Source: Terriglobia bacterium (GTDB lineage Bacteria > Acidobacteriota > Terriglobia > Terriglobales > Acidobacteriaceae). From it: DNA of 64,000 nucleotides. Below are positions 1 to 35,994 of the stretch, one piece after another (within the stretch, counting starts at the first letter, position 1; each line of letters begins with the position of its first letter). The notes below the pieces were generated by a model. It was not told the origin of the DNA. It worked only from the letters and a program-made list of their open reading frames with translations, and did no database searches. The position numbers and the translations under genes are program-made. The DNA is taken from NCBI GenBank assembly GCA_020073165.1, contig JAIQFP010000008.1, forward strand, positions 1-64,000, read 5' to 3'.

Positions 1-161
1 CCGGCCATCCCGCTCTGCCGATACCGCCGTAGCCACACATACCCGGTCTCGCGCGCGATCCCGTAGCGCTCACACAACTCCGTCATCGTCTGCTCATCCC
101 GTTCATAGTCAACAACGAACCGGACCTTCTCTTCCATCACACTGCTCGCTCTCCATGGCAT
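1..161 (-). CDS. IS481-type transposase, N-terminal part (runs off left edge)
   Basis: Translating the minus strand from 161 gives MPWRASSVMEEKVRFVVDYE, followed by a helix-turn-helix with TELCERYGIARETGYVWLRR. This is the usual start of IS481-family DDE transposases, which bind the element ends with this N-terminal domain and cut with a C-terminal integrase core. Only about 53 codons lie in the window, so the catalytic core and integrity cannot be judged. MPW is the common N-terminus of this family, which is why 161 is preferred over the internal ATG at 137. Repeats just upstream look like the element's end. Confidence 0.75.
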   Translation of the reverse strand, partial: MPWRASSVMEEKVRFVVDYERDEQTMTELCERYGIARETGYVWLRRYRQSGMA

Positions 162-33896: not shown

Positions 33897-35384
<1,488 letters not shown>

Positions 35385-35487: not shown

Positions 35488-35994
35488 ATGCAGGATCGCA
35501 CCGAAACGCTCCGCGTTGGGTCGCCAGCGCCGGAGTTTTTGCTGTCGGCCGCTAACCGGGACGGGACTTTCCAGTTGTCTGCGCTGCTGCTACGCGGAAC
35601 GCTGGTGGTGGAATTCTTACGCGGAACCTGGTGACCGAACTGCGTTGAACGCATGGCCCAGGTTGAGCCAATGGTGGGCGAGATCGAGGACGCGAAGGCG
35701 CAACTGGTCTACATCGCAGCCGAGAAACGCGAGGGCGTGTTCAAACCGGGAAGGTTTCTGGAGAAGCATCCGGTCTCATTCCCTTTCCTGCTGGATGAGG
35801 ACCGCTCGGTGACCAAAGCGTACGGACTGTATCACCGGTTGGGAATGGACGCCATTAACATCGCGCATCCGGCAACGTTGGTCATCGATCGCGCTGGCAT
35901 CGTGCAGTACACCTACCGTGGCGACAGCCAGTCCGATCGCGCGCCGATGACGCAAGTGATGACCGCATTGAAGAGATTAACGATTGCCAATTGA
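35488..35994 (+). CDS. Redoxin (AhpC/TSA-like) with in-frame TGA, candidate selenoprotein
   Basis: Read through one TGA, the frame from ATG 35488 gives a 168-residue thioredoxin-fold protein. It starts MQDRTETLRVGSPAPEFLLS, contains VVEFLRGTW-U-PNCVERMAQ with the TGA as residue 49 and a resolving Cys52 (U-x-x-C), then FLEKHPVSFPFLLDEDRSVT and HPATLVIDRAGIVQYTY. The motif is the redoxin active site in which Cys is normal, and known Prx-like selenoproteins use Sec there. Family-like sequence on both sides of the TGA, plus a hairpin fitting bSECIS rules right after it, favours Sec over a stop. Sec machinery genes are outside the window. Confidence 0.78.
35652..35679 (+). promoter_or_regulatory. 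Candidate bSECIS element downstream of the UGA
   Basis: GCCCA (35656-35660) and TGGGC (35675-35679) form a 5-bp stem with a 14-base loop starting GG; the first loop G is 27 bases after the UGA (35632-35634). That fits published bacterial SECIS rules (loop of 3-14 nt, G within the first two positions, 16-37 nt from UGA). A different fold, CAT-GGC with GCC-A-ATG (35652-35673) and GGTT in the loop, is also possible. Confidence 0.6.

Follow-up and report, generated by a model that had tools for sequence, protein, structure and literature searches.

A redoxin gene with an in-frame TGA codon

The window (the whole 64,000-nucleotide stretch of DNA that was analysed), from a soil-type member of the Acidobacteriota, carries a redoxin-family gene with an internal in-frame TGA codon, lying between a divergent enolase gene (eno) and a downstream gene on its own strand (Table 1). 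When this TGA is translated as selenocysteine (Sec, U), a protein of 168 residues (18.8 kDa when Cys stands in for U) results, with U at position 49 in the site FLRGTW-U-PNC, and the gene terminates at a TGA of its own (35992-35994). With Cys in place of U, the protein matched the Pfam families Redoxin (PF08534; 78 bits against a cut-off of 26.6, residues 10-152) and AhpC-TSA (PF00578; 73.4 bits against a cut-off of 26, residues 10-141). Both matches span the TGA, so that family sequence lies on either side of it, which bears out the proposal of the first-pass annotation that read-through yields one continuous redoxin-like protein. The annotation also held that standard gene calling would recover just a 113-residue fragment from 35653; the list of open reading frames made without read-through indeed contains only that fragment (35653-35994) in the redoxin frame, so gene callers that end a frame at UGA would deliver from this window a product lacking the active site. 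None of the NCBIfam models reached its cut-off with the full-length redoxin: the ResA model (NF002854) scored 46.6 bits, below its cut-off of 170, and the SelL-related redox protein model (NF040769) 38.4 bits, below 120.

Table 1. Features of the redoxin locus and related genes of the host genome (positions in the window unless a genome location is given).
Feature	Position	Strand	Basis
Predicted redoxin-family selenoprotein gene, 168 aa, U49	35488..35994	+	Read-through translation; Pfam Redoxin and AhpC-TSA; orthologues sharing the frame
In-frame TGA, predicted Sec codon, first residue of U-P-N-C	35632..35634	+	TGA in 37/38 distinct aligned loci; Sec machinery
Cys52 codon (TGC), second redox residue of UxxC	35641..35643	+	Invariant in the 36-row alignment
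Pro128 codon; four same-genome Prx-type proteins have Arg at this column	35869..35871	+	Invariant in 36 rows; side-by-side alignment
Conserved bSECIS-like hairpin, UGA+21 to +35	35655..35669	+	Pairing over 37 sequences; synonymous constraint; stem disrupted in the Cys gene
Enolase gene, conserved divergent neighbour	33897..35318	-	Pfam
Conserved downstream gene, 209 aa	36036..36665	+	Adjacency in order loci; no Pfam family over cut-off
Three TGA-bearing AhpC-TSA genes	G000:C7:228852-229238 (L001); G000:C30:1543-1917 (L002); G000:C7:284569-284970 (L006)		

We aligned the read-through protein with its orthologues in 36 rows, leaving out L042 (which has an extra TAG) and L057 and reading TGA as Cys. 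Besides the U49 site, 25 columns were invariant, and these lie on both sides of the TGA. Position 49 and Cys52 were both invariant, giving a UxxC site (U-P-N-C) in a PF00578/PF08534 protein, as in the Prx-like and redoxin UxxC selenoproteins. The neighbourhood was also conserved within the order (Terriglobales): eno adjoins the redoxin at 29 of 38 distinct loci and the downstream gene at 30 of 38, many of these loci having only 1.5 kb of flank. Outside the order, the 1.5 kb around each of the 13 loci contained neither gene. The downstream protein contains a glycine-rich stretch.

Predicted active site and enzymatic role

An AF2 model of the protein (pLDDT 91, pTM 0.88) had Bcp4 (3hjp) as its best PDB structure match, with TM 0.85/0.91, and nearly all of its best 50 matches listed were peroxiredoxins, with Bcp4 and AhpE first. 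Among sequence matches in the PDB, ResA and other members of the thioredoxin family ranked first and Bcp came fourth. In an alignment of the protein with four Prx-type proteins encoded by the same genome, U49 fell at the Thr of their TxxC/TxxU motif, Cys52 at the peroxidatic position and the invariant Pro128 at their Arg column, where Pro is found in Trx-like proteins. In this alignment the U-x-x-C site and Pro128 thus depart from the classical peroxiredoxin pattern of TxxC/TxxU with a catalytic Arg, and the active site looks more thioredoxin-like than peroxiredoxin-like.

Because U49, Cys52 and Pro128 align in a Trx-like manner and the W-U-P-N-C site is ResA-like, the protein is probably a thiol-disulfide oxidoreductase on a peroxiredoxin scaffold. 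Sec49 would attack a disulfide or another oxidised substrate, Cys52 of U-P-N-C would resolve it as a selenenylsulfide, and a thioredoxin-type donor may then reduce the selenenylsulfide. The same selenoprotein could instead act as a peroxidase, that is, as a strict peroxiredoxin, a reading favoured by the peroxiredoxins that fill the model's listed best 50 matches, by membership of the Redoxin and AhpC-TSA families and by the suitability of Sec for peroxide chemistry. We consider it unlikely, though deserving of some weight, given the placement of U49 at the Thr and of Cys52 at the peroxidatic residue, the replacement of the Arg by Pro128, and the lead of ResA and the thioredoxin family over Bcp among the PDB sequence matches.

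The TGA codon is conserved among relatives

Matches at E<=1e-15 were found in 28 of 200 genomes of the order, comprising 26 orthologues with the TGA and two weak Cys matches (G100 and G071, 36-38% identity), which were treated as distant paralogues and not as orthologues. When the one Cys orthologue was used as query against 397 genomes of the order, 52 genomes matched at E<=1e-18 with 53 rows. The in-frame TGA was present in 50 of these; the single row without it is the Cys gene itself (G707, the query's genome), and two partial rows stop short of the site (one from G188, where the TGA lies in the other half, and the second piece of G144). Checked locus by locus as a TGA following RGTW or its last W (26+10+13+2 genomes), codon 49 was TGA in 51 of the 52 order genomes carrying the gene and Cys in one, so that at least 51 sampled genomes of the order carry the gene with TGA; this is the outcome of the comparison with Cys or Sec homologues that the first-pass annotation had proposed. 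Among 38 distinct aligned loci, a set from which L058-L060 and L083-L087 (distant, or with the site absent) and ten duplicates were excluded, 37 have TGA and one (L079) has TGC. The exchange of Cys and UGA between orthologues that is looked for in bacterial selenoproteins is therefore present.

A search of 396 genomes across the phylum gave 18 with a match at E<=1e-20, each with one in-frame TGA (18/18), though Cys relatives may be missed, as scoring covered only the top 9 first-look candidates in a genome. The 13 matches outside the order read RG-x-W-U-x-x-C. Another UxxC Prx-like protein, with the site RGDW-U-PYC, was seen in a Desulfobulbaceae metagenome-assembled genome (MAG) that has selA, selB and tRNA-Sec (L083:1724-2242).

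Several copies looked broken or misassembled, with frame breaks near the site in L057/L082 (G188) and L159 (G587), an N in the frame before the site in L160 (G749), an extra stop in L151 (G744) and a TAG in G156; those of G188, G587, G749 and G744 look like decay or assembly errors. Such copies in a few relatives, together with a plain list of open reading frames that holds only 35653-35994 in the frame, would suit a TGA that arose as a nonsense mutation, leaving a pseudogene or a 113-residue protein from 35653. This is very improbable: all but one of the 52 order genomes that carry the gene retain the TGA, the 25 invariant columns of the 36-row alignment flank the site on both sides, and the codons past the TGA are under the RNA-level constraint described below.

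A conserved RNA hairpin follows the UGA

A hairpin with a five-pair stem (35655-35659/35665-35669) and a five-base loop (35660-35664, AGGTT) follows the UGA, with a loop G at 35661, or UGA+27. Its consensus is GGCUC-AGNNN-GAGCC. Of the 185 cells given by 37 sequences, 180 (97.3%) were paired, compared to 10.8-47.0% after sliding by 1-3 bases. The five unpaired cells are all C-A at the fourth pair, in 5 of 37 rows including the window (C35658/A35666). Changes on both sides occurred at two pairs, from G-C to A-U in L042 and from U-A to C-G in L054; L141 repeats the former and L145 the latter, and each is a sister of the row it repeats in the tree. Each of 13 further loci forms the full five-pair stem, and 9 of them have the A-U form, probably shared by descent. 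The covariation was moderate by a shuffle control (28 of 500 shuffles scored as high) because few pairs vary.

Three further observations bear on the hairpin. First, a scan for synonymous constraint over 36 Sec rows, which likewise drops the frameshifted L057 and sets the Cys row L079 aside, ranked codons 60 (z 16.8), 57 (10.9), 55 (8.3), 126 (8.1) and 58 (5.3) highest, and four of these five sit 6-11 codons past the UGA, within or just ahead of the hairpin. Second, the stem is broken in the Cys gene, where the same stretch folds at only -1.3 kcal/mol. Third, RNAalifold keeps the hairpin at UGA+21..+35 minus the fourth pair and adds a pair at UGA+20/+36; it also adds a three-pair hairpin at UGA+7..9/+17..19, which we do not claim as its letters hardly vary. 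Far from the hairpin, the Ala126 codon (35863-35865) also showed a strong synonymous bias, being GCG in 27 of 36 rows.

A small apical loop with a G in a hairpin just past the UGA is a described feature of the bSECIS (PMC1088965), and a hairpin with such a loop G is found here. The first-pass annotation had proposed a different one, with the stem GCCCA/TGGGC and a 14-nt loop. That stem exists in the window at the distance given and has its 5' arm and loop G in common with the conserved hairpin, but its 3' arm is not conserved, and the conserved element occupies UGA+21..+35. We rejected the proposed pairing (UGA+22..26/+41..45) as only 36.8% of its cells were paired over the 37 sequences and no both-sides change occurred; its covariation score was matched by only 17 of 500 shuffles.

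Outside the order, an AGUU-type loop caps a predicted hairpin at a similar distance in six loci (L105, L106, L107, L109, L110 and L112), and L106 has G-C at the fourth pair. L116 and L117 have a seven-pair hairpin whose three-base loop contains GG, and L108, L111, L113, L114 and L115 fold differently.

The host genome encodes the selenocysteine machinery

In bacteria, SelA, SelD and tRNA-Sec make Sec-tRNA, which SelB delivers to the ribosome given the hairpin. All four genes that the first-pass annotation had suggested looking for are present in the host genome (4.6 Mb, 100% completeness, 0.33% contamination): selA (2e-125, 535 bits including the N-terminal part), selB (1e-110, over the cut-off), selD, which carries an in-frame TGA of its own, and tRNA-Sec (70.3 bits; anticodon TCA per ARAGORN). 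The complement of selA, selB, selD and tRNA-Sec expected of a bacterium with selenoproteins is thus complete.

An in-frame TGA was found in 4 of the 16 AhpC-TSA matches of the genome, namely the redoxin of the window and three genes with TGA at peroxiredoxin-type sites (TPG-U, TGG-U and TPT-U). SelD is itself a predicted selenoprotein, with the site KAAG-U-ASK (G000:C2:127687-128697; L019, L020). Counting these two kinds only (Prx-type/AhpC-TSA and SelD), we predict at least five selenoproteins in this genome: the window redoxin, the three Prx-type proteins and SelD. Two other members of the family drew attention. The tRNA-Sec gene lies about 400 bases or less downstream of the AhpC-TSA match in a Cys-type AhpC gene (G000:C4:50865-51778; L003, L024), and in another homologue (G000:C20:118268-118666; L007) Ser replaces the peroxidatic Cys of its relatives (WEPVS).

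Among the 200 order genomes, selB was found in 23 of 26 carriers of the redoxin gene compared to 63 of 174 non-carriers (Fisher p=5e-7, kinship ignored). The three carriers without a selB over the cut-off (G117, G125 and G167) all have selA and tRNA-Sec, and G167 has selB-like pieces spread over several contigs; the genome of L064 likewise has selA and tRNA-Sec and no selB over the cut-off. The redoxin gene is not universal, since the 63 selB-bearing genomes above lack it and G601, the sole genome of the same genus sampled (91% complete), gave no match to it.

A single protein would likewise result from read-through if the UGA were decoded as some other amino acid, such as Trp or Cys, through an altered code or suppression. 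That is more improbable still, because the redoxin gene itself terminates at TGA, the Sec machinery is encoded, further in-frame TGA codons stand at typical Sec sites (in SelD and the three Prx-type genes), and Cys is the sole substitution found in the order. A sequencing or assembly error turning TGC into TGA, a difference of one base, is the least credible reading of all, with TGA at that codon in 50 other order genomes. With error, pseudogene and changed code all rejected on the conservation of the TGA, the constraint and the machinery, the TGA at codon 49 is almost certainly decoded as Sec, to judge from these genomic data, and the original suggestion of a likely selenoprotein is backed by Sec and Cys homologues, by the machinery and by a hairpin whose distance from the UGA resembles that of a bSECIS. 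Decoding would take place at the ribosome by SelB with Sec-tRNA when the hairpin 21-35 nt downstream is present.

A Cys orthologue and the direction of change

The one Cys orthologue (L079, in G707) comes from a MAG named Edaphobacter aggregans and encodes FLRGTWCPNC. Its locus runs gpmI, eno, Cys redoxin and then the downstream gene of the window, and this shared setting marks it as a positional orthologue. In its genome, selA gave 0 matches, no selB passed the cut-off, and the match to the tRNA-Sec family was a tRNA-Ser. The Sec machinery is likely absent; likely and not certain, because the assembly, though 100% complete, is in 350 contigs with 6% contamination and shows no match of EF-Tu strength either.

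In a tree of 57 rows, which omits four loci of the 397-genome search and the 13 further loci, the Cys row lies inside the clade of the order (support 93/95) with Sec rows outside it; branching within the clade is uncertain, and the outgroup part of the tree joins long branches. The change was likely from Sec to Cys, judging by this topology. We tentatively propose, with slightly less than even confidence, that Sec is ancestral and near-obligatory in this redoxin subfamily in Acidobacteriota, that loss of the gene is usual where a change to Cys is not, and that the lone Cys copy arose along with loss of the machinery and of the hairpin. If so, the subfamily would be a natural test of why Sec persists, and the locus beside eno might represent a redox module specific to the clade. 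Since the clade is almost entirely Sec and its one syntenic Cys copy lies in a genome in which the machinery was not found, it offers clean material to ask what Sec gives a UxxC redoxin.

Comparison with known selenoproteins

That Prx-like U-x-x-C selenoproteins are known in bacteria, as the earlier annotation had stated, agrees with a catalogue that lists UxxC members of PF00578 and PF08534 (PMC13188914). Such members appear in reviews (PMC13188914, PMC9312934), and UxxC Prx-like selenoproteins appear in metagenome surveys (PMC1088965, PMC2398784). For Acidobacteria, four selenoproteins in three families were reported in 2006 (PMC1794560), and three known selenoprotein genes are given for the acidobacterium Occallatibacter riparius (PMC12013277). 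Among the papers listed by literature searches, none described the clade of the window redoxin in its title or the opening of its abstract.

One of the closest entries by description is the catalogued redoxin family protein (PF08534, UxxC; HEU0032618.1 in PMC13188914), which shares the Pfam family and the UxxC motif, a likeness of description and not of sequence. The 'Prx-like 3' family of the GOS survey (PMC2398784) also combines PF08534 with UxxC; however, its PF08534 match is only at an e-value >0.001 and it is commoner in marine samples, whereas the clade of the window is found in Acidobacteriota and, in the order, mostly beside eno. With the Prx-like thiol:disulfide oxidoreductases (PF00578, UxxC/UxxU; PMC1794560, PMC1088965, PMC9312934, PMC13188914) the window protein shares PF00578, UxxC and a proposed thiol-disulfide role, although it scores best for PF08534, this comparison too being one of descriptions. 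The Sec peroxiredoxins (PF00578, TxxU), of which the host genome has three T-x-x-U proteins, share the superfamily and the predicted fold and differ in that the Sec of the window protein stands in UxxC and Pro occupies the Arg column. Of the ResA/TlpA-type thiol-disulfide oxidoreductases, the ResA entry 3c71 aligns without gaps with the window protein at the GTWCPxC site, but the window protein has no signal or anchor by eye and reaches only 46.6 of the 170 bits set for ResA in NCBIfam. The window redoxin is thus a further case of the catalogued UxxC Prx-like/redoxin selenoproteins, and what deserves a specialist's attention is that the gene is almost always of the Sec type in the phylum as sampled.
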